Source of the DNA: Porpolomopsis calyptriformis
Taxonomy: Eukaryota; Basidiomycota; Agaricomycetes; Agaricales; Hygrophoraceae
DNA: 64,000 bases
Assembly (NCBI GenBank): GCA_951640195.1
Contig: OX621163.1
Span: forward strand, 3,534,001-3,598,000
Direction: 5' to 3'
A model generated the notes under the pieces. That model had not been told where the DNA came from, did not search any database, and saw only the letters and a program-made list of their open reading frames with translations. Shown piece by piece: positions 9,807 through 62,458 of the stretch (its first letter is position 1; each line of letters opens with the position of its first letter). The position numbers and the translations under genes are program-made.

Positions 9807-11170
9807 ATCAGGGACCCATTATCAACAAAATGACCAAAATGCTGGCACAAAATTAATTCAAAATTCTTTGGGGGATTGTTAGGGCATCCCAATACAATCA
9901 GTTTAAGCCATAAATTAAAAAAATCGGCGGTCCCATTCTTGAGATATATGTAAAATACTCCATTTATACCATTATGCAGCCCAGCTATTGTATTGCACTC
10001 TATAAATCACAATTTCATGTCCATTCGATAGGCACAGTGAACTAATGGTGGGCCCACCCAAAATTCCGATTTTTAGAGCATTTGGTATGTCGTGGTGGAA
10101 GATAGTAACAGTTTAGGAGGAGGCATAGGTATAAGTAGCTATAGACTGCTCTAAAAATCGGGGTTTTATATTCAATCGATAGCCCCAGTGTCATAGAGGT
10201 GGGGAATACAACAATCCCGATTTATGGACCATTTGGGGTACCGCAATCAGTGATATAAGGGGTATGGGGGGGGTATATCTCCAACTTATCACAGAGCTCT
10301 TTAAAAATCAGGATTTTATGTTCAATCGATAGCACTAGTGTCACAGATACTGGGAATACAAAAATCCTGATTTATAGACCATTTGGGGTACCGCAATAAG
10401 CTATATAAGGGGTATGGGGGGGTATATCTCCAACTTATCACAGAGCTCTTTAAAAATTGGGATTTCATGTTCAATCGATAGCAGTAGTGTCATAGAGGCT
10501 CGGAATAACAAAATCCTGATTTATAGGTAGAATAATGTACCACAATAAGCCATATAAGGGGTATGGGGGGGTATATCTCCAACTTATTACAGAGGTCTTT
10601 AAAAACCTGGGTTTTATATTCAATCAATAGCCCCAGTGTCATAGAGGTGGGGAATACAAAAATCCTAAGTTATAGACCATTTGGGGTACTGCAATCAGTT
10701 ATATAAGGGGTATGGGGGGGTATATCTCCAACTTATTACAGACATCTTTAAACATCATAATTTCATGTTCAATCAATAGCACTAGTGTCATAGATGCTCG
10801 GAATAACAATATATGGGTAGAATAAGGCACTCCAATAAGGTATATAAAGGGTATGAGGGAGTATATCTCCAACTTATCACAGACCTCTTTAAACATCACA
10901 ATTTCATGTTCAATCAATAGCACCAGTGTTATAGATGCTCGGAATAACAATATATGGTCAGAATGAGGTACTGCAATAAGCTATATAAGGGGTATGGGGG
11001 AGTATATCTCCAACTTATCACAGACCTCTTTAAACATCACAATTTCATGTTCAATCAATAGCACCAGTGTTACAGATGCTCGGAATGACAATATATGGAC
11101 AGAATGAGGCACTGCAATAAGCTATATAAGGGGTATAGGGGGGTATATCTCTAACTTATCACAGAGCTCT
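9807..11170 (+). repeat. Left terminal inverted repeat of the giant element
   Basis: Begins ATCAGGGACCCATTATC. It runs co-linearly with the reverse complement of 61085-62458 up to the motif CACAGAGCTCT. The first ~270 bp are unique-looking; the rest consists of ~145-bp minisatellite units. Mismatches to the right copy are scattered single bases and small indels. Confidence 0.85.
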
Positions 11171-12060
11171 CTGAGCATCAGGATTTCATGTTCAATCAAT
11201 AGCACCTGTGTTACAAACATTGGGAATAGTCCAATCATCATGTGTAGATAGACTGGGGTGCCGCAAGAAGTATACAGGAGGTAGGGGGGGGTATACCTTC
11301 AAGTTATCACAGAGCTCTCTGAGCATCAGGATTTCATGTTCAATCAATAGCATCAGTGTTATAAACATTGGGAATAGTCTAATCCTCGTGTATGGATTGA
11401 CTAGGGTGCCGCAATAAGTATATAAGATATCATGGGGTGGTATACCTTTAACTTATCAGAGAGCTCTCTAATCATCGGGATTTTATGTTAAATCAACAGC
11501 ATTAGTGTTACAAAGGTCAGGAGTAGTCTAATCCTCATGTGTGGAATGATTGGGGTATAGTATGTAAGAAGTATCGGATGATATACCTTCAACTTATCAC
11601 AGAGCTCTCCGAGTATCAGGATTTTATGTTCAATCAATAGCATGAGTATTACAAAGGTTAGGAATAGTTCAATCATCATGTGTGGATTAACTAGGGTGCC
11701 GCAATAAGTATACAACAGGTATGGGAGGGTATACCTTCAACTTATCAGAGAGCCCTCTAAGCATCAGGATTTTATGTTCAATCAATAGCATTGGTGCTAC
11801 AAACATCAGGAGTAGTCCAATCCTCATGTGCGGAATAATTGGGGTACCGTAATTAGCATGCAAGAGGTATCAGAGGTTATACCTTCAACTTCTCACCGAG
11901 CTCTCTAACCATCAGCATGTTATGTTCAATCAATAGCATTAGTGTGATAACATCCCAGAATAACCACATCCCCATGGGCAGACTGATTGGGGTACCACAA
12001 TGAGCAGTGTAACACATATAGGTAGAATAGACCTGTGAATATATAATCTTCAAATCGATA
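10075..12060 (+). repeat. ~145-bp minisatellite array, about 14 diverged units
   Basis: Units recur about every 140-150 bp. Each contains GGGTATATCTCCAACTTAT, then CACAGAGCTCTTTAAA, then TTTCATGTTCAATCAATAGC, then GGGAATA and TATATAAGGGGTATGG. Starts of the ATATCTCC block fall near 10277, 10426, 10572, 10722, 10863, 11008 and 11152, with more diverged units (TATACCTTCAACTTATCA) to about 12060. The outer units belong to the terminal repeat. Those beyond 11170 have no partner at the right end. Confidence 0.85.
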
Positions 12061-12062
12061 CA

Positions 12063-15000
12063 TTAGCTACTAGATTGCTCTGATCCTGGCTCATCTGTGT
12101 ACTCTAATGAATCGGAATCGGAATCAGACTCTAAATCTGCCCGTTCCCTAGCAGCCTTGACTCTTGACTGAGATCTACCTACTATATGTCTTCCTGAACC
12201 TGAATCTTCTCTCTCCGCATCTTTCCTAGCAGCGTTCATTCTTGACCGAGTTATCCGCACACCACTCACCCCCTTTCTTCCCTCGTCTTTCTGGGCAGCC
12301 TTGGCCTTTGAGCGAGTAACCCTAACCTGTTGCTCTTTCCCGCTCTCTGAACCTGAAGGATTGTTGTCTGCTTTCCGTCTTACAGGAGGCTTTTGTTTTT
12401 GGTAGATTTTGGCAGACTTTCGGCTCCGAATAGGTGGTTTTATCAATCTCCCCAAGGTTTCATCTAGTTGTCTCTGAAGTATATTCTTTGAAGCATGAGG
12501 CCTTTTTAGGACCTGAGTTCGTGGACGCGCAGCCACCTCTTTCCCAATTTCTTCAATCCGATAGAACTTTGAATTCGAAATAAAGTTGATCTTGCCTGAT
12601 TTCATCCCCCATATGACTTGTTTCCCCTTTTTATTCGATAGGCCACCTATAGGAAGGCATTGTAACTGGCCAAATATATTGTCCAATTCACGGCAGAGCT
12701 GATCACCTTCATCCATATCCCAATCCACAAGATATTGGTGGTAAGTGGAGATATATCCTCCAGGCTGGGTGTATGGTTTCCAGACTGAATTCTCTGGGAT
12801 CTGGATAGTTTGTTCAGGGAAGAAGGTTGCCTGACGTGCTGAAAATGATAGATCATGGGAGTGACTCAAAGGAAGCTTTCCTTTAAGGCCACAGCTCGAA
12901 GGAAGGAATTGGCAATGGTCAATGCCTATGATATGCTGAATCGCAGGTACCGTCCAAGTCTCCATTGCTTCCTGAACTGTGGTTGGCTTGGGTAAAACAC
13001 CTGCTGATGCAAACTGCTCTGCCAGACTTAGCCACAGCTGATGCGTGAACTCAACAAACAACAGCTTTGTGTAAAGCAGTTCAGGAGCTTCCCAGTCATC
13101 ATCCAACCTCCATTCCCTAAGGAAAATCTCTGGCTCGGTTTCCAACAGTTTCTGAATTCTTGACCAAGATGGATTGGGACCCCAAGGGCACGCATCTTGC
13201 TGATACATTTGAATAAGGTGATATAGCTGGTTGGCTTGAGTTGCCTGTGGCTTCTTCAAGGACTGTCCATACGCTTGGATAACCTCAGCTGGATCCTCCT
13301 CCGGTAGTTCTCTTAGAGATAGCACTCCTTTCTTCAACTTGAGGTTGTGAAGAAAGAACATTCCGAACCTCCACATTATCGAACTGAAACGAAGGTCTCG
13401 CAACACATCATTCAAGAATGTGTGCTTTATCCTTGGCGTGACCATGGTGTGCTTAATCAGGTGGATGATAAGCGTAGCCATCATTCCATAGTTGCTTGGT
13501 CGATTTCGTGAAAGGTGTAGTTGGACGTTTTGAAACTCTGCTAGCCTTCTTGCCAACAACTTGAAAAAGAGGCTCGACTTGATCCAAATGATAGGGTCAG
13601 ACGACATATAGTCTTGTGCCTGGCAATCATTAGACATTTCTAGTTTGCAGTTATTTCGCTGCTTACCTTTTCAGATGCTACATCAAGAAGCTTTATAATG
13701 GCTAACCCACTCCCTCTAACTTCTTCTCTAACGCCGAATGACTGGATTTGAGAAGATTGAAACAGCTTTTTCCAGTGATCACAGCTAGTCATGAATCGGT
13801 CATTTGTCTTGACTGCATCACAGTTATCACATAGGTAGTTCGTTTGGCCAGGAAGTCGCACCACCTCAAAGCAAAGGTTGTAGCTGGATCGGAAGCAAAG
13901 GTGTACAAGCCGACTTTTCTTCAACTTGGTTTCAGCCTGTCTCCCTCCATAAGCTCCAAACATGGCAGTATAATGGGTCATTCCTTTTTTCATCCCCATA
14001 AGGTCGTACGAGTCGTCGATCCTATCTAACCTCCACAGCCCTACCAATAGCTCCTGATCCTCCCTAGAAGGAGGATGGTATGAAATCCCAAGATCAAGCA
14101 AGAGTTCTCCATGCAATCGGTCCTTCATATAATCCCAGTCCATGTTAGGAATCATCGAACAGAGTGCCTGATATATATTCTCAGTTGGGTGGTGCTGCTT
14201 AGAGAGCAGTTTGATACCTCGAGCATCTACAACAAAGAAAAAGGACCCAAATCGGCCTAGGAGATTGGGCTGGTTATTTATGATGTCGCAGAGAGTGGTT
14301 CGCATGGAAGAAAATGCTTCAGGTGTGAGGGGAATGGTCTTGGTCGTACGTCTTGTCCCTATTTTCCATTGGAGATTACTGACGCTTGTAGGAAGATACT
14401 CCATAATTCCGGTGTAGTTGGCTAAAACCACTGGCAGAGCAGGCATGATCACTTGTGAGAACCACAACTCCTGTACCTCCCTTGGCATCAGAGTAGTCAT
14501 TCTATGCGTTCCTGGGTCTTTCCTAATCATACGAGGGAAGAAGACGTAGGTGTTAAATTGGCCTGATCCTTGACCCATCTGCCCGAAATGGGTATGTGGC
14601 AAGGCACTAAGTGGATACCTTTTAGACCTCTGCCTAGGATTTCGAGTGGTAGGTGGTTGTAGAACCTGGACATAGACATGATTGTTGACAGAGAATGGAG
14701 GTTTGTCATCTAACAGTGGAAGAAGGTGAATATTGATTGGACCAATGAACTGTGGTTTATGCGTGACCCATATAACGCTGTCGATATCCACCGACACTGA
14801 CACTTCTTCATCGTCCAGGTTTACTCTATCCTTCTCCAAGTCGAAGTAGATGAATTTGTTGTTGCGTGCTTTACCTTTTACAAACACACCCTGGCTCTCT
14901 GATGTCCCTTCCACCCCTCCCGCCTCATCCAACATATCCTGAGCACCCATCATAGTCACATCTGGGTTGTCCATAGCTGGTAGGGAATTCGGCACCTCAG

Positions 15001-17430
15001 AAGAATGAGAAGATAACGAGGATGGGTATGCAACTGGAGATGATGGTAAATATCCACTTGCTTGATCACTTGAATCCCAGTGTGGAAGAAGGTGGTCATT
15101 GAGGAGAACCGGTTCCTGGTTATTGAACATAGAGAAAAAATCGGCCTGCAACCTATAGCCTCTATCCCTCCAGATACTCCAGTGCTTGCCCAATACAAGC
15201 ATTCCATTGGTGTCAAAGGTCCACGTGTTTGGAATGATATCAGCTTGATCCTCGGAGCAAACCAACATAGCTGATTCGTAGTCATCAAAAGGCCGCTCAT
15301 CAACGCTTGTTGCTAATGCTTCTTCACCCCCATTCCCATTTAGCTCAACCTCTGGAAGTTGGATTTCAGGTAGAGACCTTCTGGAAGGCTGAGGTGGTAG
15401 GTTGATTACAATGGAATCATCATCGTTGTCATCATTGTCATTGTCATTGTCATCATCATTGTGATTGTTGTCGTCATTGCTGGCATTGCCATCCTTGTTG
15501 TGACTATCCAGAAGATGGCCTAGTTGATTAATATAGGTAGCCTCTTTAGATTGATTATCACAGGTAATCGGAATGAGATAATACTCACACTTCATACGAG
15601 CAGTTGCAAGCGCAAGTGCTATTACCTCGAAACGCTTGAATTTTAAAAGCCCAGCCTTCATATCATTCACAACCTCAGAATTGGGTTCCATGGAATACCG
15701 AAGCAGGGTCTGAGTCTTGTTCCAGAAGTCATATGATTTTTGTACAGTTTGAAGCACAGTGAGAAATATTCTCTCTCGCATCGCATGAACACATTGCAAT
15801 TTGGGTGCAAGTGGGTGTTGGTTAATGTCTGTGGAATACATCCAACCATTATCAAAGATTTCTTGGCAAAGCGATGCCATCCAGGAACCAGTGTCAGCCT
15901 CACTCTGTTGAAATATGTATATGAATATGCTTCTTCTGTATAGAAACGAGATTTTCACCGTATTCCAATTCGGTTTGATTACTTGGGGACCTCGCTCATC
16001 CAACTCACTACCCAGGATCCACCCAAACACATTAGCAATAGCCCTCCAATAGTAGTTGCCATTCCACTCCATCCAATCTGAGTACATATTGGTTTCGAGT
16101 GGAGCTCCATGGCTAAAAACAAGAACCTTCTCCTGCTGGTAATCAAATAAAGCTAGCCTTTGGGTTGCAGAAGATTGCCATGATAGTGGAGGGAAAAATA
16201 ACACAGGCTTTTTCGGGATAGCAACGTGAGGTGGAAGAAGGAGAGTTTTATGGATTTCGGTAGACAGGATGTCTTCTTCTTCTCTTATTACCCTGCTCAC
16301 CGTTTCTGAGTCTAGATAGTAGGAATATCTCTGAGATGGCATCTGGGGTTGAATGGACATATACCATGATTTCAAAAGGTAAATTTCTATAACCGCATGA
16401 TCCAGGTGGTTTCCAGGCTTAGCAGATCCCAATGATTGACAAGCTGAAGCCCATATCCTTGGATCTGCTAGCTTCGTGTCTAATATCCTTGATGAGTCTA
16501 ATCACCACCAATAATATAAGAACATACCTATAAAAAGCTCTTGCTCAGATCATGGTAGATTCAATCGAATGGCATTTTTTGCTAGTAAATGAGAATGAGC
16601 GCTGTCACTTTCACTGGATCCAATGAAATCTGATCCGTTATTGCTAGCTGGCGACGATGATCGGCTTGTTGAGCTTCTAAAAGTTTAGTATTTAACCTAA
16701 CATTTCGAATGATAGATTTATTCACCGGTGTCTGGTTTCAAATCGCGAGTTGTTCCTTCTAATATCCACCGAAGGCTCTGAAGGAGAGCTATAATCACTA
16801 AACCTAACCAGTATTAATACGCAAGTATCTTATGATTTCTCTTAAAATACATACCATGCTTTCGCCACCTGGAAAATAAATAAATGTAAGTTATTATTGT
16901 CATAGGTTAATTGAGACATACAGCGCCATTATCCTTTCTACTTATTGCGTTTTGGACCCTTGAAGGACCTGGCTGGGGACCTAAGGGAGCCAATGGAGGT
17001 ATCGATATATATTGCTGATCCGAATTCTGGATGTTAAGATGATTTAGGCTAATTAACGTTGTCTGTAATAATGTGAGCACTTTAACCTTGAAAACAGATA
17101 TACACTTACTGAGTATACTGGCTTTTTGTTGATTAATATATGTTTTTTGGAAGGCATATGTTTTTCTCCTAGCATCGGTATTGGCATTGGCATCTTCTCT
17201 GCACAAGGCATATTCAGGATATTACGTATATCACTATCATCTGAACCACTAGAAGTCGAATCCCCTTCCTGGTTTATTATGGTTTTATTAGCCTCGTAAT
17301 GATTTAATTGTGTGAATCGAATTAGATACATAACTACTAGGGATAGGCTTACCTTGGCTAGTGAGGACATAGCTATGATCCTATCTATATCACTGTCATA
17401 ATCTGCACCTTCATTTGCCTGGTTTGCCAT
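12063..17430 (-). CDS. Very large uncharacterised protein (~1.6 kb of codons) beside the left terminal repeat
   Basis: ATG at 17430, stop TAA at 12063-12065. Small N-terminal exons (MANQANEGADYDSDIDR; a Ser-rich exon) lead into a ~950-codon exon ending EK at ~13663. A 49-bp intron with a tctaatg branch-like motif then joins a ~519-codon last exon in phase. Features: an Asn/Asp-rich tract at ~15420-15490 and a basic C-terminus with RxTRSR-like repeats (possible nuclear or DNA-binding tail). Conserved-looking blocks include GIMEYLPTSVSNLQWK, FFFVVDARGIKLLSKQ and CDNCDAVKTNDRF. I believe related proteins are common and unnamed in agaricomycetes, but assign no function. One TGA (16550-16552; RC of tca) sits in LP-*-SEQELF where CGA would give Arg. 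Position next to the terminal repeat makes it a candidate element-encoded mobility or maintenance protein; this is inference only. Confidence 0.7.
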
Positions 17431-17559
17431 ATTGGAGGTTAAGATCGAGAGCTATGTTTGTGCAATAGTCGAGACAAAGTGTATCTACATTCACGTGACA
17501 TATATATAGCTGTGGGAATATAATATGAATAATCAACATTGGTCCGTAGATTTATTATT
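17431..17559. promoter_or_regulatory. Short divergent promoter region
   Basis: Only 129 bp separate the start codons of two divergent genes (17430 - and 17560 +). A TATATATAG run at 17501-17509 is the only promoter-like motif seen. Shared control of both genes is plausible but inferred. Confidence 0.35.
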
Positions 17560-18925
17560 ATGGCACCTACAACCGAGGAAAAACAATGGAAATCTGCAAA
17601 AGTTGTAGAATACCTCGAGGTTCCTAATCCAAATGATGGTGAGATATCACCTATGCCTTGTTCTATTTGTTCCGAATCAAAACTTTATAGGCTCTCCTTG
17701 CAAATTCGTTAAGAATGACTTGTAAGTGTTTATCGATAATGCTTGAATAGTAGTCATTTGATTATTTCCCTCAAACACAGCTGCCTCATCCGTCACCTTG
17801 GCCTCCATGCAAAGGAAGAAAATAATATTATAATGGATGACTACTGGAAAGGTTTGATCCTACAAATAAGAAAAACTACTAAGGTGATACACCTGCTCAA
17901 GCTACCCTACCCAATGTTGACAATGTGCTTTAGAACAAGTATCTTGCTAAGGTTTCATGGATGTATACAGCCAAGCAGTTGTTGGAGAGAAGTGATGTTA
18001 AGGCTGATACTAAAAGGTTGCATCTCAAAACCTACTCCTTCTCCTGTCACTCTATGTTCTTCTTACTCTTGACAGGTATATAAACACATTTGGAAAGCAA
18101 GAGCTGTGTGGCTCTGATTCTACAGATATCATTGATGCGCAAGCCTTGGAAGGTGAGGGTTATTATATCGAGAAGCAGATATAAAAGAATGAACTGAACT
18201 GAACTGAAAATTAAACTGTAGATACAATCGACATTGTTATTATTAAAAATCAGATCGAAGATCAACCTCCAGTAACTGCGTATTACATGCGGTAAGCTTG
18301 ACGATAATACCAACCCATCTATTATACTAAAATTTCTATTAGATACTTCTGGGATGCGCATAGGCAGGCATTGAAGGTGCGTTCATTGAACTAAACATAT
18401 ACCCTGTAGTAATCTATTGGGTGGTAGGGCGAGCCAGAAATATGTGGCGCAACTCACTGTTATTCACTTTGGTCCCCCGATACAGAGGAACAACGCTACT
18501 GCTGGTCCTGCAAAAGATGGTCCCATCTTACTTGCCTAGGAACCCCTGCCAACATTACCCAGCAGCAGTATCTTAACAATCTCTATGCTATAGAGAAGTT
18601 TGCCGACACCCCAAAAATTATACTTCAAGTTGCTTTCCAACCCACAGCTAGGGGAGGTCTCACTTATTTTACAGCCGGAAATATTAGGATCGTGAACAAG
18701 GCTAGAAAGTTGCTTTCTTCACAGGAACGCAGTGTCGTCCAAGCCTCTGGATGGATAGCTGCTCACCTCATTGAGGAGTCTCGGTTAAATATGATAGACA
18801 CTGACTGGGAAAACTAGCTTGAGGCAGAATTCGGCATAGATAACACAGACTCTTATGAGCCATTAGTCGTTACAGACCAAACATACTATACTTGCCCTCG
18901 GTGTAGCTCAGATTTGCTTATTTGA
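17560..18925 (+). pseudogene. BAH/PHD-like zinc-finger protein, interrupted by stops
   Basis: Starts MAPTTEEKQWKSAKVVEYL. Several short introns follow. The central exon reads KVSWMYTAKQLLERSDVKAD; then come PPVTAYYMRYFWDAHRQAL and, from ~18430, a cysteine cluster EICGATHCYSLW...YCWSCKRWSHLTCLG. That Cys/His spacing resembles a PHD-type finger following a BAH-like region, as in chromatin readers. It ends with a second cysteine pair, CPRCSSDLLI, and TGA 18923-18925. In-frame stops: TAA 17880-17882, TAG 17931-17933 and TAG 18815-18817. Each is one C-to-T (or G-to-T) step from Gln/Glu. The zinc-finger assignment is moderate and the BAH part weak. The exon around 17810-17880 could not be joined cleanly. 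Confidence 0.55.
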
Positions 18926-18997
18926 TACCTTACCATTCTTCTAGCTTATCTAATACCTACTATCCTTCACCGTGTTACTGCTAAAAACTCAGCTATT

Positions 18998-20142
18998 ATG
19001 TTCCCCTCCACTATAAAACAAAGTGCAACAGATCTAATGGATGGAATACTGAAAGCAAAGAGAATCGTCGTGCTCTGTGGTCAATCGACCCATCATCATG
19101 TTTCATTCAAATACTTACCTACTCTCTAGGAGCAGGAATATCCGTGGCTGCAGGTATTCCATGTTTTAGAGGACCAGATGGCTTATATACTGGCAACGCA
19201 CTATCTGGATTTACCGGAGTCAACCTGACTGATCTGCTTACTAGCTCATCCCTCGTAGTGAGAAATATATGTTCAAGTGAGGATTAGTTGACCAAGTTAA
19301 TGTTCTAGACCCAAAAGCAACAATCACTGCATTGTCAGCTCATTGCCACCCTTGCTGAGAAAGCGGCAATCGCACAACCCACTGCCTTCCACCATTTCCT
19401 TCGTGCTCTAGACCTCCAAGGAGTGTTACTCCGTGTTTACACTCAAAATATCGATGGTTTGGAGCTCAAGGCTGGGTTACATATGTCCTCAGAAATTCAC
19501 CCCAGTGATGGACCAGCCTGATGCATTCCATTGCATGGATCCCTAGAGGAACTACGATGCCCTGGCTGCTCCTCCATTTTTATCCTCGAACCATACTACC
19601 CCTCTTTGAAAGAGGGCCAACTACCAGAATGCACTGAATGTCAAATCAATATGGAAAAGAGGGTAGAGCAGGGCAAACGCAGAACGACTGTGCCTCGACT
19701 CCAACCCAATATCATTCTTTACGGAGAACCACATCCTCGAGGAGAAGAAATAGCAAACGTGCAGCAAAATGATCTTGGGTTAACTACCACCCCCAGTCGC
19801 CAACTAGATCTTCTCCTTGTGGTTGGCACTAGCTTGAAAGTGAAGGGTACTACTGACTTTATCAAGCAGTCCGCTAGAATCTTAGCAAAAAATTCCCCCA
19901 AATCCAGTTTACAAGCATCGCCTCAAGTTATATATCTCAATAATACCTTTACGAACACAGCTACGTGGGCTGGTATATTCGACGCTTGGATAGACATGGA
20001 CTGTGAAGAGTTTGCACGGTTGGCATTGAAAAGGATGGAGGAGATGATTGCGTCAGGTGAAATGCTCGAAAGCAACCACACTCAGGTTCAGGTTCTCTAT
20101 GGAGACAGAAAGCTTAACTACAGACCATCATGGAGGTTATAG
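18998..20142 (+). pseudogene. Sir2-family NAD-dependent protein deacetylase (sirtuin), one in-frame stop
   Basis: Start MFPSTIKQSATDLMDG at 18998. Three exons: introns 19080-19129 and 19255-19308. Splicing restores VVLCGAGISVAAGIPCFRG, the NAD-binding GAGIS motif. Exon 3 has VYTQNIDGLE, the HG of the catalytic histidine (PLHGSLEELRC) and a four-cysteine zinc site (CPGC...CTEC), then NIILYGEP and LLLVVGTSLKV. Length (~376 aa) fits an Hst-type fungal sirtuin. The family removes acetyl groups from histones using NAD. A single TGA at 19519-19521 lies just before CIPLHG; CGA would give the usual Arg. Apart from this stop the frame is complete. Confidence 0.85.
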
Positions 20143-21620: not shown

Positions 21621-21830
21621 ATGGTTCACATTCACTCATTGTGATCATTTAGTATTTCACAGCTAGCAATGAATCTTTCAGCTGATAATGATCAGCCAGT
21701 GGGATCCCATGGTGCATTTCATTCAGATGAATTTACCAAGCTGATACTGATCCAAGATCCAAGCTGAGATAGAGGGGGGGCAGCCTCAATTCTCCGATAA
21801 CAGTGTTACCATTCCTCCACGATTCGAAAG

Positions 21831-27397: not shown

Positions 27398-27459
27398 CTA
27401 GTATAGCAACATAAGATTAAAGTACGGTGCGCAAGTGTACATGGCTAAATTGAAGACTA

Positions 27460-50700: not shown

Positions 50701-53245
50701 CCCCCTTCTGTGCTCTCCGCATTGATCCCACCCTCCCTTTCCCCACGTATTTCAGTCTCTTCCCCCACATCTTTCGTTATCTCTTCCCCCACATCTTTCA
50801 CTACCTCTTCCCCCGTGTCTTTTGCTATCTCTTCCCCCACATCTTTTGCTATCTCTTCTGGCACATCTTTCGCTACCTCTTTCACTACCTCCTTCACTAC
50901 CTCTTTCGCTACCTCCTTCGCTACCTCTTTCGCTACCTCCTTCGCTACCTCTTTCGCTACCCCTTCCTCAATTTCTCCTGGCTCCTGAGCCGGAAGTACT
51001 ACTGGTTCCTCCCCATCTTGCTGTGAGGACCTCTCTCCTGATCCCTGAGACTCGTTCTCGGCTAGCTCATAGGATATCGCCAGTGGTTGCCTAGCTGTGA
51101 GCGGGAATGCCAATGAGTGGGCCCCCACTGGAAGATCAGAGATAAAATCAACTAGAGGAAGGTAATGAGTGGTAAATCAAGAAATAGTAGAAGGAGACAT
51201 ACCGGGCAAATGGAACCAATAGCAGTCTGCATCATTAAATTGGGTTTGATGGGAAGTAGCTGAAAATTGAGAGAAAAATCCAATGATGGCGTCCATAGCA
51301 GTTGACCCGGTTGCAATCGAAATAAAAGAGTGCCAGAGTGCTCTCTCTGTGTTCACGAGGAATTGGGGATGCTCATTACCCAAAGAAAATGTCAGCTAGA
51401 CGAAATCAATAAATAAGTGAGTAATTGATCGCCAAACGAGCTTACCGCAACAAGTTGGTCACGACTAACTTCTGCCCTGCTAAGGCTGTGAGGGAGGAAA
51501 ACAAGGAGGGGTGAGATGGAGGTTGTGAGATGGAATATGCTCCGCATGCGTTCGTAAAGAGCCTTAGAATTTCTGGAGAGCATATCCCTGAATGTCGGGG
51601 ATAGTGGAGCTTGCATATTAACTGCCATGCTGAAAAGGGGTATCAGAATCATCCTTAGATGATGTGTGCTATACACACCTTTCCAGCTGTTGGTTCCATA
51701 ACTTAGCATCGATGTTGAATGCAGTTTGAGGCTATGGAAGAAAAATGAAGCATTAGCTGCAAGGATAGATCTCCTTTATAGTCAAAGAAAGTTACCTTGC
51801 TGAACCAAGTGATTGCAAAAGCCATGAGTTCTACGTTAGTGAGGATTTCACTCACAGCTGCTGTGCTCATGTGCCCAGCTGCACGATGTAGCGCTTTGAT
51901 TCCACAGACGAGATGGCGTTGTCTGAGGGACAAGTCTTTTGGAACGCTGGTGATGCGATGTGGAGCTGTCTGAGCTCTGGGATCTGCCCCAAGAGATGGT
52001 GGGAGGCACAATAGAAAGGAGCTATCAAAGAAATCGTGCAAATCGAAGAAATAGAAGAAATCAGAAATTCGGAGCACTCTCTAGAGTGCTAGAGGCGGTC
52101 GAAGAGGCTCAAACATGAAGGACTAGACGTGGGACGATGGGATCTATCTTCCTTCTCTATGATACAAACATATCTACAAGTAAATATATCTGTGAAAACA
52201 AAGATCCCTTTATATGCTATATAGTAAAGGGATGAGACTTCTGAACGAAGCCACCAGTGAAAGGGTCAATGGGAACGATGAGGATCTACACAATGGACAT
52301 CTGGCTATCAGATGCATCCTTTGATATGAGCTGCAATCACGAATAGAAGGATCAGAGAATTCGAAGAAATTCGCAGAAATCCGAAGCATTTGGAGATAAA
52401 TCGCTGGACAGGAAGCCGAATCGCGTAGTCGGGGACATCGTAGTAGTGTAGTAGACGTCTGGAGGATCACGTAGATATGTGGAACATGTCCTCCGGACCT
52501 CAGGGGACCAAGGGGTCATATCACCAGTCTCAAACGGGCTTTGTGATGAGACTTTAGACTCTGCGACAGGGAGCTTGCTTAATGCGGACATGGCATCTTC
52601 AATAAGTGTAACCCAATCTTCAATAGGTCGGATGAGCTAAAATATACATGCATCTATCAGTTGTAATAACCCATATAAATTGTACTTACACTCTGCAATC
52701 TCTCAGTTATGTTGGGTCTTGAACACCTTGGCCTGCGCACCAAACAGCTTGAGGGGGTGGGGGAAATACTGTCCACCAAGCGATCGAGAAGACTGTAGCG
52801 GAGCAGCATGTGGGCTGCAAGAAATACATCCCTGGGATGCTTCTTAGACCAATGGTTGGCTTCCCTCAGACTACTGCTGTCTGATGCGAAGTATTGTTGT
52901 AAGAACACGATCTGGTTTGGGGTCAGAGTTTCAGGGATAGCCCTGTTGTTGAGCTCACAGCAGAGCATCTATGTAAAGTGGAAGTGGCATGAGGGTCATT
53001 GATAGTATAATACAATTCAGAGAGCAATGACTTACTAGAAGCAAGTCTGCTGCACCGGAGTTCCTCTCCAATTCTTCTGGCCCCATTAGTTGCATAAACT
53101 CTTCCCCAAGTTGACATGGGGAAAGGGGTAGGCCATGACGCCACGGGAAGTCTTGGAATGCACGAAACTGAGAAAGCTTCAAGTTTGTATTCATCGGTGA
53201 TGAGGTCAAAGATGAAGCAGAGGGTGTAGAAGCGGAGGAAAACAT
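47752..53245 (-). pseudogene. Second JmjC-domain protein, large, with Lys/Glu repeat region; one clear stop
   Basis: ATG 53245 (MFSSASTPSASSLTSSP). Many exons: FPWRHGLPLSPCQLGEEF, SLREANHWSKKHPRDVFLAA, DLSLRQRHLVCGIKALHRAA, HPQFLVNTERALWHSFISIA, then an acidic exon (51128-50460) with tandem (E)VAKEVAKE repeats. JmjC part: EIEGAFLNRVHNLIQKSYVD (~49820), ILNGLDFPMGEIWRMPPPRF (~49380), EMRWGLAATRGSTMWCHVDD with His-x-Asp (~49180), FGTSVQVMCGAKYWVVF, and distal His in NTLHAVWGVEDMITYGSHF (~48870). The C-terminal exon ends RVKGG at 47752. Iron ligands are intact. A TGA (49388-49390, reverse strand) precedes ILNGL, expected CGA. The region 52180-52340 also carries an apparent stop. Family role: 2-oxoglutarate-dependent demethylation, usually of histones. 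Confidence 0.7.
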
Positions 53246-53374
53246 CAAGAGGACATTAAAATATCATAGACTCTGGGACACTAGTTAAAGTAGAAGAACA
53301 AATATTGAAAATTTCACAAAGGATGAAGACAGTCACCGAAAGTAACAGCCACCGAATGTGACAGTCACGCATTA

Positions 53375-53677
53375 GTGCCATTGTCTGATCCCGAATTTGT
53401 CGACTTCGTGTATGCAGAAAGCTCTGATGCCATATTGTTTCAGAATACGCTTTTCGCATATGTCAACGTCCGATATCAACCACATGGTGGGGCTTCAAGA
53501 TGGATTTTACCCAAGGCAAATGGCGTTTTTACTGCCAATTACCAAGCAAGAAAGAAATCCACTTCACATCAAATAGGCATGGTTATCAGAAGGATGGATC
53601 CAGAGCGTACCACATTTTGTAGACTCTACCATGTTGCTCCCCATGAGCGTCAATCCATACAATACACACGTCTGTAG
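53375..53677 (+). CDS. Uncharacterised open reading frame, possible exon
   Basis: About 100 codons reading PLSDPEFVDFVYAESSDAIL, NVRYQPHGGASRWILPKANG and RMDPERTTFCRLYHVAP. Composition looks protein-like, but no start ATG, family or partner exon was identified. Confidence 0.25.
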   Translation: MPLSDPEFVDFVYAESSDAILFQNTLFAYVNVRYQPHGGASRWILPKANGVFTANYQARKKSTSHQIGMVIRRMDPERTTFCRLYHVAPHERQSIQYTRL

Positions 53678-54494
53678 ACAGTTGTGAGGGTTAGCCTCGA
53701 AATAACTTCATCTAACATACGTGCCTCAATGTCCGATACAATCCCAGAGCCTCACATCACATCCAACTTCGATTCAGAATCATACCATAGTCAAACTACC
53801 GCATACCAGGCCTGAGCAACTTGCCATTGTTGATGTGTTCACCAACAACGGTAGAGACAGTCCCTGTTACACGAGAGGACATCCTGAGGTTCTTCGCTTT
53901 TCCAATGGGGACAACAGAAATATCCTCAAACTGGTGATGACTGTCTGTAAAGTGTCTGATTGGACAAGATTCTGCATACACTTGACTTGGTGAAAAAGTT
54001 TGAGGAGGTCCTAGTAACATAGTACCTTACCGAATAGAACCTGTCACCGCAATCATAGCCCCTTATGACTTATACATCCACGAGGTTGTTCATTAGGATG
54101 GGAGGAGGGGTGATCGGCACCTATCTGCCTCTCCATACTGGCTAAAGGCCTGTCTTCTAGCGCTTGGTCCTTGCTACACCTGAATGATTTAGAAGTGTAA
54201 AATGACTCATTGACCACAGCCTGCTGGTTGAGCACCTAGCTGTTTCGCCAGACCTGTGTAGGCTTTTCCGCGCAGTTCCTTGGTCTGGTTAGAGACTCTT
54301 GTGTGTGTCACTCCATCCCTCATCCAAGAGGTCTGAACCTCTTTGCATTTAACCTCCTTTAAGTATCTATGCTGGCTATAGAATGGATAAATCCAACAGA
54401 AAAGAGCAAAGAAAGAAATGTGGTATCATCCATCTGCTTGTGCGCTGCGTCTTGGTTGGAGTCTCCATCGGTGGGTAGGGAGGTGTGTTGGTTT

Positions 54495-54602
54495 TTGGAT
54501 GAGTGTCAGCGCTCCGTAGATATTGGTCCGTGCACCCGTACATAAATACTCGTCGTTACCTTGTACTTCCTCACGTGTTTGCCTCACAAGCTCAATGAGG
54601 TA
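54495..54602 (-). repeat. Inverted repeat arm with protein-like sequence (left)
   Basis: The reverse complement matches 59987-60093 with few changes. Both copies, read the same way, encode LIELVRQTREEVQGNDEY and LCTGARTNIYG. They flank the dioxygenase gene. Confidence 0.8.
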
Positions 54603-54681
54603 CAAACCATTTCCCCAACAAGGTGCACATCATGTTGAAGAAATAGGAACCCAAGTTCATTCGGGGTATAATTAACCTAGC

Positions 54682-57600
54682 CTAGCCGAATCATGTAGTC
54701 TTCGGGCTTCTCATCTAAGAATCGAACGACATCTTGGTGGCTAAAATGGACCCACGCGATACGCCCAGGAGTGCATGTATTGGTGGACAACATGGGGCCA
54801 GGTTCCCAGCGCCCAACTCCATGGAACAAGTATGGAGACCTCAGAATAACAATATCTCCAGCCTTATATCTAGCTCAGCAGTTAGTTCAAAAATGGTACA
54901 TACATGAACAAAACACCTCACGCTAAGCACAAATCCAAGTCCGGCAAATAAAGATGTCCCCCATTAAACTTGCCGGCACAAGTGATCACGCTCAATTCAA
55001 AATTGTTGTGGTTGATGTGCACATCAACCTGAAGCTTCCAAATAGTTGCGAGTCTAAAAAAGCAGGATTCATTGAGGTCCTGGTACCAACGACCTGCTTT
55101 ATAAGTACGTTTTAAGCGGTTCCACTCCTTTGGTGCTAATTTTTCTAGTAGCTTGTCAAGGTAGTTCGTTTGCTTCTCAGTTGCCTGCAAGTAGTGACGT
55201 GTGATTTTTTGATTTTCGGGCTGAATGATTGCCAATAAGGTCAGAAGAGGGGATAGGGTTATCATGCTGAAAGAGACAGATTACAGCCGTTTGCACATGG
55301 CTTGACACTATTCCGCAGATTTGAAAAAAGAAAAAGAAGTCGACTAGCCATAACTTTAATTACTACTCACGCAATCTCTTACCGTAACTCTTAACATTGC
55401 TCATTGCCCTAATGGCACCACCCAATAGTGTGCTTGATCCTGGCAACATCGAATCGTCTTCTGATGAGCTTGAAGCTGCCATCAAGCCTGATCTAGGCAC
55501 GCTACCTGATCCTTTGCTCACACTGACGGTTCCGCCAAAACTCAAGATGCCGAAGGAAAAGGAGGTCGGAAAGCATAATGAAAGTATGTCCTTGCTACAT
55601 CCAAACCCAAATATAACCATATCAAAGTAATTAGATGCAACCTCTCCTTTGAAAATCACCTACAATCTCTCCCTGTTTCATGCAAAAGAAATGAAGAAAC
55701 CAGCTCGCAAACGTGTACCCCATAACGATTTTCTGAAACTCTCATCTGCCGATCCTTGGGACATGGTCAAGGCCCAACTACTTGTTAAGATTGATGCGTA
55801 TTATCACCCAGAAAACCTCAGTTTCGAAGATTACGATGTCTCCTTCTCAGTCCCTCATCATGCTCCAAATGCTATGAATCTTCATCATAACAATTACAGC
55901 TTTCTTGTCGAGCGAGCCCTCAAAGCAAAAGATCCGATTGTGAATGTCACTATTACAGAGAAGACATCTGATCTTAAGGTATGTTGCGTAACATCTATAG
56001 TTATTATACTAAATGGCAAGGCGTCAACTAGCATGGCAGAAAGAATAGAAAGAGGGGTACCGACAGTGAGAAAGAGAACACCGATACTGATGATGACTGG
56101 CCAAAAAAGAAAAAGAAAAAAGTGAGTGTTTCGCTACCATTTTGATGCTAATAGTATTTATAATATATAGAAACCCGATAAAATATTGCCAGGGAATGTA
56201 GCCCGAAACAAAAAGATCCAGTTTCTTAGGAATCGATGGGCTTGCAATACATGCAACTGCTCAAGTGATCACTGCTATGTGCCGGCTGACAACCCTGAGC
56301 ATTTCCCTCTAAGCATGACTCACTTTGAGGTCTGGGCTTCTGCCTTGGTGAGTCGTGAAGTAATCACTTGAGTTGGCAACACTAACCCATTCACCTAAAG
56401 CTTAAGGATGACGGGAGTGCAACAATTGATAAACCTCCAAACCATAAAGCATTCGACGTCTTGTCTCCAGACAGTCTTGGCCCCAAATCACTTCTTCATC
56501 AATGCCATCAACAAGCTGTAGCAAAAGATCAGGCCGTTTCTGCACCCATGCAAATTCACAACCATTTCTCTATTCCTGACGCTCTCTTCGGACTTTTGTC
56601 TCATGTCGCACCTGCACCCAATGCTGTTCCTTCTTCAACTGTTTCTCAATCACCACTGCTCATCTCTGTTGCAAATCCATCTAGACCAAAAATGACAATA
56701 ACTGACTTCTGCAACAACTACTCACTTTCCGAGGCTATTCAAGACCGACTTGTCGCAAATGGGTACTCGGGAACACATACCTTTGCTTACACTGAGATAA
56801 GTGAACTAAAGGAGATGGGATTCAAAAGTGGGGAGATTGCAGAGCTGAAACATGCTGTTGCTTCGTGGGCATTGTCATAATACTTAGACGTCCGTATTAT
56901 TTGCAGATACAGTCAATAGAATTGCCTAACAGTTTATAGCGTTCAAAACTAAAAGTAACCACTGTGAATGAAATAACCAGCTGCGTCGGATGGCAAGATA
57001 ACATCCATAGCCTCATACATATCATACATTATACCAAATTCTGTCGAAGCTGTAAAAATATCTTGGTTGTGACGAATGAATGCTTTGATTTTTGAAAAGG
57101 CCTCCTCAATTGGATTCAAATCTGGCGAGTATGGCGGCAAGTACTCCAGCTGGATTCCTGTGAGTTGATTGGCATGGGTTCATTTATGTAGGTGGGAAAC
57201 CCACCAAAACGATCAAGCAACTCTAGGATTTCAGGGCCTCGATGGATTTTTGCATTATCCATTACAAGCACATGGAGGTTGCTATGGGGAACACAGTGTG
57301 GTATCTGTTACAATAAATGAGTTGTATCTTTGCAAAAATGGCTGAAACGTACCACTGTAAATTCAAGAAATTGTAGGAATCCTGCTTTCGTCATTGAGCC
57401 TTGAACAACAGTACTTGCTATCATGCCATCAATTGTGAGAAGGCCTACTGCACTGAGACGGATTCCTCGAACAAAAACCTCCCTTGCCTCAGCCCTAGCC
57501 CCCCTCTTTGATCTACCTCTCCGACGTGAGAGTATTCGTTCATCTTTGGAAGTTTCATCGATGAAGCCCAACTCCTCAGGCTCATACTGGGCCATCCTTG

Positions 57601-59220
57601 CAATGAAGTTGGCTCTAGCATTCTCGTTCCGCTCTTGTGCAATTTTCTTCAGCTTCTTCAAAGACATACCCATGCGAGTCAGCTCTCGGAAGATGGTTGT
57701 ATAGTGAACAGAAATGAATCGATTGGTTTTGAGAAGAGCTAGGAGCTCGTCAAGGAACCAGTGAGGCCGGTGGTGCACAAGACAGATCAGATAATCAACA
57801 TCGCTCTTGTGGAGAAGCCGAGGCCATCCAAGTTTCAATCTGTGGATAGTAACGTCGCCAGTTTCGTGCCAAAGCTTTAGAACACGAAAGTAGGTGCTGT
57901 GAGAGAACCCAACAATATGCAGAATGGTCTTGAGGTCAAGCAGATTGAGATCATGGAGCCTGACGGCTGCGAGCTTTACATTCGAACTAATTTTTCGATA
58001 GGGCATTACAACAGAGTCGTGAACGGCAGCCTAAAAGTTGTATTTAAATGATTAATAATCGGTCATAACAGTATTGAGTCGACTTCTTTTCTTTTTTCAA
58101 ATCCGCGGAATAGTGTCAAGCCATGTGCAAACGGCTGTAAAACAAATCATGTAAATAAATAAGTTTATGACACACCCTATGTCCTAACTCGTACCATGCT
58201 TGAATGTCGTGGCGTAATCAAACAGGCTCATGACCATCAGTGATGTCTAAACATGTGCCAACATTGGTCTGGAGAAGTGATGCTGCTTCAAAATATCAAT
58301 GTTCAACTCTTGAATCCTAGTTGAGCTTACATGAATGTACAATATTGTCCTCTTCTTCAAGGACATCAAAGTCCATTAGTGGGTAGAGAGCGCTTTCCAG
58401 ATGTCTCTTATCCCCACCCAGAGCTGGACAAACAGGCTGAATTTCAGAAAACAGTTTTTGAGTGGCCTCCCAGACGAATTGAGCTTCATTTTCCTAAATA
58501 ACCACATTTCAATGAGTGAATGATGTTATTGAAATGCAATGAACACACATAAAACCCATCCCTGACTATACGACCATCTTTCACTCGCTCTGAGGCATAT
58601 ATCACTAACCATTCAGGATCCTCGCCAACATCTTCGACCCACCGCCGCGACATACCCCAGGGAATGATATTGGATGCTTGCATATCGTGGAAGCGCTTCT
58701 CTGCAAAGGCTGAAACCTGGCTTGTGATGGTGCGTAGGCGAAGGTCGGAAAGCCTCACTCCTTTGCATACAATGGTATCTAGTCATATAAGAATAGTGAA
58801 ATGGATACATTATGACTACTCACTCTCAGGTTGGTCTAAAAAATCTTTTAACCATGCCGCCCGTTTTCGAAAAAAAGACGCTTCCTTGGCAATTGATTTT
58901 TGTAAAGATTGTCCATGTGCAAAGCAGGGAGTTTGCTGGCCCCGTGGTGCTGGGACTGGATTAAACTTTTTGCCTGGAAATGGCGTGGCCCCACCCCTGG
59001 TGCTATATCGCCTCATGTCTGTGGCCTGTAAAGTAAAGTCAGACACATTTTTACCCCACCATCTTCCACACTCAAGGATGTACCAGGATCGAATGCGACA
59101 CCCTCTGGAAACGCCAAGTTGCATAACATGATGAAAGTTACCCCAGACACCAATGCTTATGCGGCAGTGCAGGTCCATTTTGGTAACCGAGACTCGACGA
59201 GAATAACACAGATTAATCAC
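54682..59220 (-). CDS. Putative 2-oxoglutarate/Fe(II) dioxygenase gene split by an intronic Tc1/mariner insertion
   Basis: Upstream exons (59220 to ~58327): MDLHCRISIGVWGNFHHVMQ, GGATPFPGKKFNPVPAPRGQ, RLSDLRLRTITSQVSAFAEK, IPWGMSRRWVEDVGEDPEW, LFSEIQPVCPALGGDKRH. Downstream exons (~55215-54682): KQTNYLDKLLEKLAPKEWNR, ATIWKLQVDVHINHNNFELS, GKFNGGHLYLPDLDLCL, YKAGDIVILRSPYLFHGVGR, ending MIRLG-TAG. The GGHLYLP and PYLFHG blocks match a double-stranded beta-helix dioxygenase, with the distal His present. The expected His-x-Asp reads His-x-Asn (HIN; Asn codon 55011-55013, reverse strand), so iron binding may be lost. Joining at GAGGACAATATT/CCCGAAAATC is phase-compatible and would place the 2.85-kb transposon in an intron. 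That single-gene model is inference. Confidence 0.5.
55412..56880 (+). CDS. Accessory protein of the Tc1/mariner-like element, C-terminal SAM-like domain
   Basis: ATG 55412 (MAPPNSVLDPGNIESSSDEL), acidic N-terminus. Introns follow near 55582-55634, 55979, 56120-56170 and 56346-56402. Middle exons: SLFHAKEMKKPARKRVPHND, SSADPWDMVKAQLLVKIDAY and a basic KKRKRKK tract; then a small cysteine cluster, WACNTCNCSSDHCYVP (~56236). The C-terminus (ITDFCNNYSLSEAIQDRLVA, then ISELKEMGFKSGEIAELKHA) has the helical pattern of a SAM domain. Stop TAA 56878-56880. Role unknown; it could assist binding, targeting or oligomerisation of the transposase. Its 5' end is kept in both deletion derivatives. Confidence 0.65.
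56949..58006 (-). CDS. Tc1/mariner-family transposase (DD34E)
   Basis: Start MPYRKISSNVKLAAVRLHDL at 58006; the N-terminal helix-turn-helix pair includes VGFSHSTYFRVLKLWHETG. Catalytic residues: Asp in LGFIDETSKD (~57565), Asp in LHVLVMDNAKIHRG (~57260) and Glu in PPYSPDLNPIEEAF (~57120). With the intron GTGGG...CTCACAG (~57208-57160) removed, 34 residues separate the second Asp and the Glu, giving DD34E as in Tc1. Another intron lies at ~57353-57305. Ends HSGYF-TAA near 56955. No disabling change was seen, in contrast to the host cargo genes. Confidence 0.88.
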
Positions 59221-60532
59221 AGGCTCACTTCCTTCTGAGTACCATTGAAGTGTGGGGACTTAACGGCGGCAATTTTGATCTGGTATGTTTCCATCATGCA
59301 ATATTACAACTTTTTGAACCAGATCCGGTGTCATTAGACTTGGACGATCAAGAATGGGCCACAGATACCTTGACCTGGTGGGATAAATAGTTATTATGCG
59401 TACTCCCATACTTGTAGCCTGACTGACAATCAATTCTTATTTGGCATGCATGCGATGCTTCCGGCAGTCCTGGCAGTGACGAATCTGGAAGACTCGAATG
59501 GCAATATGAACGACCGTGTACTACTTTTCGCTCAACGTGCTGCCCGCCGTGCCCGTCGAGGCATGAATCCTTTCGGTGGTACAGCACTCCCTCCTCACAT
59601 TACATCAGGAAAATGACGTATATGTTGGTAGTTGCTTGGGAGTGCAACCATATATATGTGACTCGGTGATCTGCATGTAAGGGATACCCTGCTGGATTAA
59701 CGAGAATCATCATTATGATTTCTGGTCTCGGTGGAGGCTTAACAGGCTTACAGAGGCTGTAGATCTTCACACTGTCATTCTAGAGAGGCCTGGAATGGGC
59801 CTACACCGTCAACCACTCCTGCGACGCTTGGAGGAGATCTCATCAGTTAAGACCTTGACCTCGGGTCCTGGTAGACATATCTTGTAATTTACGCTGTTCA
59901 ATGATATCGGATGGCACTCCTTGCGGAAACTATCAACATTGTGAAAGAACAAAAGGAATATGGTATCATGTGTTGGAACGGCTTGGACCTCATTGAGCTC
60001 GTGAGGCAAACACGTGAGGAAGTACAAGGTAACGACGAGTATTTATGTACAGGTGCACGGACCAATATCTACGGAGAACTGATGCTCATCCAATCATGTA
60101 CCAGTGTCACCACCGTCAAACAAGGAAGTTCACCAATCTGGTGCATCTAAGGTATATTTTGGTTCGTATCAGTGTGGGATATCGGCAGGCATGACCAGTC
60201 AGCACCGAGAGGTATTCCAAGGGCAATACCTGGTATACGCGTCACTATGGGTGCGTCTATTAATGAGGTTACGCATGCCAGAAAATGCTTACTCCCTCAG
60301 CTGGGATATATTCTTCTCGTCATATTTTGTATTGACGGGAATGTGCTCCAGTTATACTGTATTCCTGATGCAGCAAGTTCTCATCAAATTGTGGTCATGT
60401 CTCAGAATTTACACAAATCTGCCCATATTTGCCCTTGTCATATTTTTGAGAAATACGCTGTGCAGGAAGCAGTTGACTGGTTCTAATATGGAGTCACACC
60501 CACGTGAGTTGAGTGACTGTCACACCCATGTG
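59221..60532. other. Mostly unexplained interval before the right terminal region
   Basis: Plus-strand fragment STIEVWGLNGGNFDLVCF... to DTLTWWDK-TAG (~59238-59391) looks protein-coding, but no family can be named. The inverted repeat arm 59987-60093 lies here. Elsewhere nothing is recognisable. Confidence 0.35.
59987..60093 (+). repeat. Inverted repeat arm with protein-like sequence (right)
   Basis: Reverse-complement partner of 54495-54602, encoding LIELVRQTREEVQGNDEY on +. Confidence 0.8.
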
Positions 60533-60772
60533 AGGTGACTGTCACAAGGCGGTCCCCGAAATAGAGTTCAACAAACTCTCTACGAAGTGCCAGTCACTGT
60601 GTTTCAGAGGTGGGTAGTGACAACACCGTTCAACTTGGTCGACTCAACGTGGCGTGAGCTCAACTCAGGTAACCAGCAGTAGACTCTGGTAGTCAGATGA
60701 AAGAGACCCAGGCCAGTCGAGCCAAGTAAATAGATGATCCGATTCCATTTAACTACAGGTAGATTAGGATTA
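60533..60772 (+). repeat. Dispersed ~240-bp repeat, copy 2
   Basis: Direct copy of 47005-47249, joined at the same base to a Tc1-like derivative. Confidence 0.85.
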
Positions 60773-61082
60773 CAGCCGTTTGCACATGGCTTGACACTTG
60801 TCCGGAGATTTAAGAAAAGTCGACCAGCCATAACTTGTACAATCTCTTACTGTAACTCTTAACATTGCTCATCACCTTAATGGTACCACCCAACAGTGTG
60901 CTTGATCCTGGTGACATTGAATCATCTTCCGACAAGCTTGAGGTTGCCATTAAGCCTGATCTTGGTACAACAGCCTAACAGTTGTATTTAAATGATTAAT
61001 AATCAGTTATAACAGCACTGAGTCGACTCTTTTCTTTTTTCAAATCCGCGGAAAAGTGTGTCAAGCCATGTGCAAACAGCTG
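60773..61082 (+). mobile_element. Tc1/mariner internal-deletion derivative (copy 3) at the inner edge of the right terminal repeat
   Basis: 310 bp, ends CAGCCG / CAGCTG, bordered by TA. It has the same internal deletion junction as 47250-47671 but lacks the nested MITE. Its right TA lies in AGAGCTCTTTA-type minisatellite sequence of the terminal repeat, while its left flank is the dispersed repeat. Confidence 0.9.
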
Positions 61083-61084
61083 TA

Positions 61085-62458
61085 AAGAGCTCTGTGATAA
61101 GTTAGAGATATACCCCCCCATACCCCTTATATAGTTTATTGCTGTGCCTCATTCTGTCCATATATTGTCATTCCGAGCATCTATAACACTGGTGCTATTG
61201 TTTGAACATAAAATTGTGATGTTTAAAGAGGTCTGTGATAAGTTGGAGATATACTCCCCCATACCCCTTATATAGCTTATTGCAGTGCCTTATTCTGTCC
61301 ATATATTGTTATTCCAAGCATCTATCACACTGGTGCTATTGATTGAACATGAAATTGTGATGTTTAAAGAGGTCTGTGATAAGTTGGAGATATAGTCCCT
61401 CATACCCTTTATATAACTTATTGGAGTACCTTATTCTATCCATATATTGTTATTCCAAGCATCTACGACACTGGTGCTATTGATTGAACATGAAATTGTA
61501 ATGTTTAAAGATGTCTGTAATAAGTTGGAGATATACCCCTCCCATACCCCTTATATAACTGATTGCAGTACCCCAAATAGTCCGTAACTCAGGAATTTTG
61601 TATTCCCCACCTCTATGACACTGGGGCTATTGATTGAATATAAAACCCAGATTTTTAAAGAGCTCTGTGATAAGTTGGAGATATACCCCCCATACCCCTT
61701 ATATGGCTTATTGCGGTACCTTATTCCGCCTATAAATCAGGATTTTGTTATTCCGAGCCTCTATGACACTACTGCTATCGATTGAACATGAAATCCCGAT
61801 TTTTAAAGACCTCTGTGATAAGTTGGAGATATACCCCTCCATACCCCTTATATAGCTTATTGTGGTACCCCAAATGGTCTATAAATCAGGATTTTTGTAT
61901 TCCCAGTATCTGTGACACTAGCGCTATCAATTGAACATGAAATCCTGATTTTTAAGGACCTCTGTGATAAGTTGGAGATATCCCCCCCCATACCCCTTAT
62001 ATAACTGATTGCGGTACCCCAAATGGTCCATAAATCGGGATTGTTGTATTCCCCACCTCTATGACACTGGGGCTATCGATTGAATATAAAACCCTGATTT
62101 TTAGAGCAGTCTATAGCTACTTATACTTATACTTCCTCCTAAAACCTTACCATCTTCCACCACGACATACCAAATGCTCTAAAAATCGGAATTTTTGGTG
62201 GGCTCACCATTAGTTCACTGTGCCTATCGAATGGATATGAAATTGCGATTTATAGAGTGCAATACAATAGCTGGGCTGCATAATGGTATAAATGGAGTAT
62301 TTTACATATATCTCAAGAATGGGACCGCCGATTTTTTTAATTTATGGGTTAGTAAATTAAAAACTGATTGTATTGGGATGCCCTAATAATCCCCCAAAGA
62401 ATTTTGAATTAATTTTGTGCCAGCATTTTGGTCATTTTGTTGATAATGGGTCCCTGAT
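61085..62458 (-). repeat. Right terminal inverted repeat of the giant element
   Basis: Reverse-complement copy of 9807-11170, ending GGTCCCTGAT at 62458. It carries about seven minisatellite units. The inner edge is cut by a Tc1-like derivative, so the array may once have extended further, as it does at the left end. Confidence 0.85.

Follow-up and report, generated by a model that had tools for sequence, protein, structure and literature searches.

A candidate giant, one-ended element directed to chromosome ends in Porpolomopsis calyptriformis

The sharp terminus and its joints

The window analysed here, a stretch of 64,000 nucleotides of Porpolomopsis calyptriformis (C1:3534001-3598000, in an assembly of 33.5 Mb and 17 contigs, C1-C17), contains two copies of one sequence on opposite strands, at 9807-11170 and 62458-61086 (positions without a contig name are window coordinates, W; L-numbers such as L006, L011 and L043 refer to individual loci). 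Their self-alignment covers 1,375 columns at 94.98% identity and the outer sequence, (A)TCAGGGACCCATTATCAAC, is identical at both copies, in line with the original prediction, in which they formed the ends of a giant cargo-carrying mobile element of 52.65 kb. An element with a sharp left end was indeed recovered, but a 52.65-kb unit bounded by both copies was not. We favour, with modest confidence, the reading that the window represents one copy of a giant, one-ended element that is directed to chromosome ends and uses YWT^C as its target, the distal arm of which is lost.

The left terminus (9809-10148, plus strand) starts with a C, the earliest base that could be part of the element, and is preceded by the target bases A-T at 9807-9808. 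Just inside lies a tandem array (10149-11945, plus strand; Tandem Repeats Finder and self-alignment) of around 12 units of 141-149 bp. Tandem Repeats Finder detected units of ~141-149 bp inside both inverted copies, and the array of the right copy (61083-62103) comprises 7 of them. Further inward two long open reading frames (ORFs) are found on the minus strand, of 953 amino acids (13640-16501; 6 homologues with 43-66% identity) and of 535 amino acids (12063-13670; 20 homologues), which probably represent exons of a single gene with a predicted intron, referred to below as gene A. The second ORF has a basic C-terminal part and its 3' end faces the terminus. Where the source names the homologues, they are labelled 'hypothetical protein'.

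The left copy carries a sharp terminus, CAGGGACCC..., which was obtained 104 times in the assembly using a 33-base pattern with at most 3 mismatches (48 forward and 56 reverse matches); the reversed pattern, which served as a control, gave 0 matches. In a separate genome search, 40 of 113 candidates were scored. One hundred of the 104 termini were listed individually, and 94 junction reads yielded 76 distinct flanks. All 76 have the same joint: an A or a T (38 each), followed by T-C-A before GGG. The base preceding this A or T (W) is a C in 39 of the flanks, against a background of 22.8% (p=6e-8), and a C or T in 58 of them.

To the joint, 28 of the 76 flanks align to the element reference and the other 48 do not. 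For 27 of these 28 the undisturbed site could be read from the element sequence itself, L043 being left out. The script returned WTC at 23 of the 27 sites and the number rises to 24 when L006 is corrected by hand; this locus was misread because the element reference is joined at that very place, and the intact sequence of the site, present in L018 and L039, is ATC. A C after WT is expected in 26% of cases (p=2e-10), and related sites outside the element are mostly WTC too. As far as the assembled sequence goes, the end has been joined to many unrelated flanks, always after W-T, and the undisturbed sites are mostly W-T-C preceded by C or T.

Two other explanations of the joint were tried and rejected. 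The 5' TC of Helitrons fits superficially, but the T and mostly also the C are already present in the undisturbed target, so that the C, unlike that of a Helitron, is native. The insertion between A and T that is characteristic of Helitrons was not found either, as the base before the T is A or T equally often (38 and 38). TCA repeats at some joints resembled the slippage tails of retroelements, and turned out to be native target sequence where this could be checked. None of the 76 flanks consists of telomere repeats where it meets the terminus. Of two TTAGGG patterns, one of 18 bases was absent from the first 20 loci and one of 24 bases from the whole genome. A scan of 9000-18000 against Rfam gave no match and no ribozyme, and the predicted folding of the terminus showed nothing unusual.

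The right copy behaves differently. It is a truncated inverted terminus (61086-62456, minus strand; self-alignment) and belongs to a subfamily with ~95% identity to the left type, for which 10 matches at 99-100% were obtained (the window included and one partial; 40 of 112 candidates scored). Among the 100 listed termini 12 were assigned to the right type, ten on basis of sequence and two (C4:126876 and C9:2005784) on basis of the outer flank. That flank is a single one of the 76, being identical in 10 of 10 copies identified by sequence and in 11 of 11 flank reads (those ten and C4:126876). Left flanks of pairs consisting of a left-type and a right-type terminus (L-R pairs) are the same for the window and its duplicate on C9, and the others that were read differ. 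A constant right flank against many left flanks makes it look as if the right joint was made once and then copied with its surroundings. In 6 of 12 cases a fragment of the histidine-kinase gene that neighbours the left copy in the window lies 15-17 kb outside the right-type terminus, which implies that the duplicated stretch goes on beyond what was taken for the right end. On its inner side, the right copy of the window borders on a small mariner-like element (60768-61085).

Immediately outside the right copy, and exactly abutting the terminus, we observed a 206-bp LTR-like (long terminal repeat-like) repeat with TG...CA ends (62459-62664, plus strand). The same repeat is present at the right-type termini that were read, and it occurs also at places without a terminus (40 of 385 candidates scored). 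Beyond it, 9 of 11 loci have one common sequence, and the window and its C9 duplicate have another.

These data bear directly on a DNA transposon of ~52 kb with terminal inverted repeats of 1.37 kb. Paired inverted copies do exist elsewhere, as had been anticipated: there are seven L-R pairs, of 52,652, 52,659, 52,035, 51,917, 28,846, 28,863 and 28,700 bp, which fall in two size classes (28.7-28.9 and 51.9-52.7 kb) as such a transposon would have it, and two pairs of right-type termini, of 51,824 and 52,481 bp. Most termini are unpaired, however, a situation that the original prediction itself had named as contrary to its claim; moreover, the sequence beyond the right joint is constant throughout the subfamily and the right copy is cut off at the mariner-like element. 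In the window and in the five other pairs for which both flanks were read, the two sides have at most A/T-T in common, which equals the target rule. The AT that had been put forward as possible target duplication corresponds, on the left, to W-T within the target site. An empty site with 9806 directly next to 62459 was not found, a search in relatives not being possible. We rejected the transposon, which we consider very improbable, on the ground that the right joint is not mobile on its own; the two copies do not both act as boundaries.

Polarity, stacking and gene A

The orientation of the termini was counted on the 14 large contigs, excluding the copies on C15 and C16, for 82 left-type and 11 right-type listed termini. 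Left-type termini point outward in 45 of 45 cases within 100 kb of a contig end, in 60 of 65 within 200 kb, in 71 of 78 within 400 kb and in 75 of 82 overall, where copies within arrays are not independent of each other. For the right type this holds for 4 of 11. A left-type terminus within 400 kb was found on 24 of the 28 chromosome arms. Near contig ends the element body, as assembled, extends outward.

The same polarity is observed where an element has become the target. In 28 of 28 in-element targets the incoming copy has the same orientation as the resident one (p=7e-9), and the targets are spread along the element, with three in the first 150 bases (p=7e-5). On C7, the right end carries a remnant of ~14 bases, after which come a variant copy that breaks off at 2.8 kb and the newest copy, which extends to element base 10,078 and then continues in telomere repeats. 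At the right end of C6 a remnant of 57 bases precedes a copy that runs to element base 14,542, after which the telomere starts. The distal parts of the older copies are missing at both ends. The telomere repeat is a mixed TTAGG/TTAGGG. Termini on C16 are spaced at 49,281 bp in an array that ends in telomere repeats, and series of termini with spacings of 29,310 bp and 25,054 bp are found on C5 and C2, respectively. In the contigs as they stand, a new copy that lands in an older one has the same orientation and cuts the older one off, and at two telomere-bearing contig ends the newest copy passes into TTAGG(G) repeats where the older distal parts are gone.

Arrays of this kind, and some of the joints, might be products of scaffolding or of the collapse of repeats. 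The array units are identical, many contigs terminate within the element and the window itself contains a gap of 200 N (8462-8661), located inside a histidine-kinase gene whose reading seems to resume beyond it. Misassembly, however, gives no reason why a single trinucleotide should prevail at 76 joints or a single orientation at 28, and a near-identical stretch on C9 crosses the gap position without missing bases, the bases that flank the gap being directly adjacent there (559407/559408). The left flank of the window is therefore probably right, and an assembly effect as general explanation can hardly be credited. The kinase gene (3500-8461), the left neighbour of the element, is itself repeated, with 38 matches including the window (37 of 52 candidates scored). 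By position these matches are mostly subtelomeric, and they constitute a second repeated block with a history of its own.

The stretch on C9 is part of a larger duplication. Window positions 3500-64000 recur in inverted orientation at C9:504062-564369, over at least ~60 kb with near 100% identity, and matching positions of retroelements on C1 and C9 hint at a much longer duplication.

In yeast, the Y' elements form near-identical gene-bearing blocks at many chromosome ends. Subtelomeric genes for RecQ helicases have been described as well (PMC7473861), and these regions resemble the element in that near-identical gene-bearing blocks are present at many chromosome ends. In a Y'-like exchange of subtelomeres there would be no dedicated element, and a fragile terminus would break and be mended through recombination between chromosome ends, based on homology or microhomology. 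The arrays are exact, the duplication between C1 and C9 comprises at least ~60 kb around the window, and fungal chromosome ends are described to lose and capture sequence (PMC8381367). Homologous exchange, though, does not explain why 76 different flanks all end at a single base after WT(C), so a site-specific step would still be needed. Unlike the RecQ regions and Y', the element has a precise terminus with many flanks, and no helicase family was recognized among the ORFs that were scanned. We regard exchange without a dedicated element as improbable.

Gene A accompanies the end. In a genome search with the second part of the gene (72 of 72 candidates scored), 71 of the 72 matches were located 2.1-4.2 kb inside a listed terminus with their 3' end toward it, and in a comparison of 11 copies the first ORF was uninterrupted in 10. 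The position of gene A beside the sole fixed end would be fitting for an enzyme that the element encodes. The first ORF has no Pfam or NCBIfam family and the second no Pfam family, and searches with PDB profiles and among viral contigs gave nothing usable. For an HUH transposase there was no family match, with low-confidence models only. The invariant DID, PHTHF and VVD motifs could, at a guess, mark a primase-like or a DDE core, and we would speculate that gene A encodes or assists an end-specific enzyme.

The main rival to the one-ended element also gives gene A a place. In it, a reverse transcriptase (RT) uses the 3' end (...WT or ...WTC) of a chromosome that has eroded as primer, and as template an RNA that ends in ...GGGUCCCUGA and is antisense to the terminus. 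Once the cDNA has met a homologous copy, break-induced replication would extend it to the telomere, in the manner of HeT-A or terminons. Gene A lies in the sense of this RNA, with a repeat-rich 3' region of 2 kb. Outward polarity and head-to-tail stacking would follow, and pairing of the target T-C with the RNA end would account for WTC and for a few sites that read WTT. On the other hand, no RT family was recognized in 40 ORFs scanned with Pfam, no RT match on C16 was among those listed (150 of 820 candidates scored), the simple tail repeats to be expected proved native target sequence and the cargo sits on both strands. Such terminal seeding by a retroelement is in our opinion unlikely, but a transcript ending in ...GGGTCCCTGA would favour it.

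Proposed mechanism and known systems

Any mechanism has to meet three constraints: the joint is precise and follows YWT, no second end that moves was seen, and distal sequence is lost at the ends where the telomere can be read. These are met most simply by a one-ended transfer, with the donor arm supplying the remainder. After a nick or cut at YWT^C the element end would be attached to a YWT^C site of a different arm, the donor DNA distal to the end would be copied or carried along, telomere included, and the target's own distal arm would be lost. With the donor arm and its telomere carried and the target arm lost, no right end would be needed and the cargo could vary. In support of this, the left flanks differ between termini with one and the same right copy. 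The chemistry can be guessed at: an IS91-like one-ended replicative transfer that runs off the chromosome end, or alternatively an end-specific cut followed by break-induced replication.

A number of observations weigh against the one-ended element. Three undisturbed sites read WTT, which suggests that the C may come from the element, L043 is unreadable at the joint, and in L014 and L029, for which related sequence exists outside the element, that sequence is not WTC. Seven of the 82 left-type termini face away from the nearest end (on C5, C6, C10 and C13, and three on C9). Loss of the distal arm is confined to two of the ends, only 5 of the 25 contig ends read showed telomere repeats, and the exact arrays could partly be products of the assembly. 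The copy at the right end of C1 breaks off at 2.7 kb where sequence of another kind, rather than a further terminus, begins, and the telomere follows. As to gene A, seven ungapped copies differ from that of the window by 7-17 nonsynonymous and 8-10 synonymous changes, without a clear sign of selection, no enzyme was recognized, and the two AlphaFold2 models of the gene are poor (mean pLDDT 32).

The element can be compared with several known systems. Starships are giant, carry cargo and have a gene in a constant position close to one of their ends, as is the case here; they differ in that the present element has one end only, that gene A points toward that end and that no captain was recognized. 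That no tyrosine-recombinase captain (DUF3435) was recognized agrees with the original prediction and holds for the 40 ORFs scanned with Pfam, short exons falling outside the scan. Terminons, giant Athena-type Penelope-like elements at the telomeres of bdelloid rotifers, reach up to 40 kb, in most cases have lost 5' sequence at a short run of telomere repeats, form head-to-tail arrays and attach to telomere repeats (PMC6431247). They share with the present element the giant size and richness in cargo, the location at chromosome ends with the fixed end inward, a gene with its 3' end toward that fixed end, and head-to-tail stacking with distal truncation by telomere repeats (28 of 28 in orientation; right ends of C6 and C7). 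They are unlike it in the joint, which is YWTC and not telomere repeats in 76 of 76 flanks, and in that no RT was recognized in the 40 scanned ORFs and no Rfam ribozyme in 9000-18000.

One-ended transposition of IS91 and gene capture by Helitrons have been described (PMC4778049). The constant end at a short target, the variable other end and the neighbouring DNA that is carried along are similar in these systems, whereas the extension to the chromosome end is not. Unlike in Helitrons, no Rep family was recognized in the scanned ORFs, and the 35 Rep matches in the genome (36 of 36 candidates scored) include none in the window or on C16. The telomeric retrotransposons MoTeR and FoTeR are likewise fungal, reside at chromosome ends and form unstable arrays, but insert in telomere repeats, whereas here YWTC sites in other sequence are targeted; capture of sequence at failed telomeres in fungi has also been described (PMC8381367 for both).

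From the above, the element may belong to a new class, a transposon that moves chromosome ends, in which the tip of the donor with its telomere functions as the other end, which is run by the gene A family and which provides a route to end healing without the targeting of telomere repeats. We put this forward as a tentative proposal, somewhat less likely than not, the probability of which was lowered slightly because L014, L029, L043 and the C1 end fit poorly. Most of the chromosome-end elements known to us are retroelements, which rely on telomere repeats or RNA tails. No description of an element as proposed here was recognized in the open-licence literature of PubMed Central, which is weak evidence of absence. 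If true, replacement of the whole distal arm through a precise, sequence-directed and one-ended joint would link transposition with the healing of chromosome ends, and would explain both the polar head-to-tail arrays of subtelomeres and the fast turnover of genes at chromosome ends. An unnamed protein family (gene A) would gain a testable role, and differences between strains should be directly readable as arms replaced after YWT^C.

Body and cargo of the element

The body of the element was compared with the unit found on C16. Positions 9807-27427 match this unit at 99.0%, a block of ~15 kb (27555-42475, minus strand) is inverted relative to it, and beyond the inverted block the match resumes up to 47005. 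The remaining ~14 kb (47006-61085) are without a long match to the C16 unit (>250 bp, >92%) and hold mariner-like pieces. Mariner-like elements at 47246-47675, 55281-58140 and 60768-61085 have TACAGC[C/T]GTTTGCACATGG ends adjoining TA, and a piece of a Tc1/mariner-like transposase (57308-58030, minus strand) was the sole transposase match in the Pfam-scanned ORFs.

The ORF and Pfam scans bear out that the interior holds accessory genes. On the plus strand, these comprise an ORF with a weak PHD finger (18428-18817; E=0.0038, below the cut-off), a Sir2 ORF (19522-20142; SIR2, E=1.4e-10), two ORFs that are alike by eye and have no Pfam family (20608-21264 and 22177-22764) and an alpha-kinase-like ORF (27454-28173; Alpha_kinase, E=5.6e-8). 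A weak Tet/JBP-like ORF lies on the minus strand (29923-30675; Tet_JBP, E=1.5e-4, 21.4 bits, below the cut-off of 34.9). A TPR ORF is present in the C16 unit (Pfam). Among the 40 ORFs of the scan, which mostly leaves aside ORFs under ~120 amino acids and thereby short exons, no family of RT, Helitron Rep, helicase or tyrosine recombinase was found.

In the distal part of the C16 unit (L011:4217-6566) there are two long ORFs without a Pfam match, and several left ends have landed there. By eye, they look similar to a Crinkler-like P-loop protein. Finally, L059 (C17, 84 kb) opens with a tRNA-like stretch and, by eye only, may be the mitochondrial genome.

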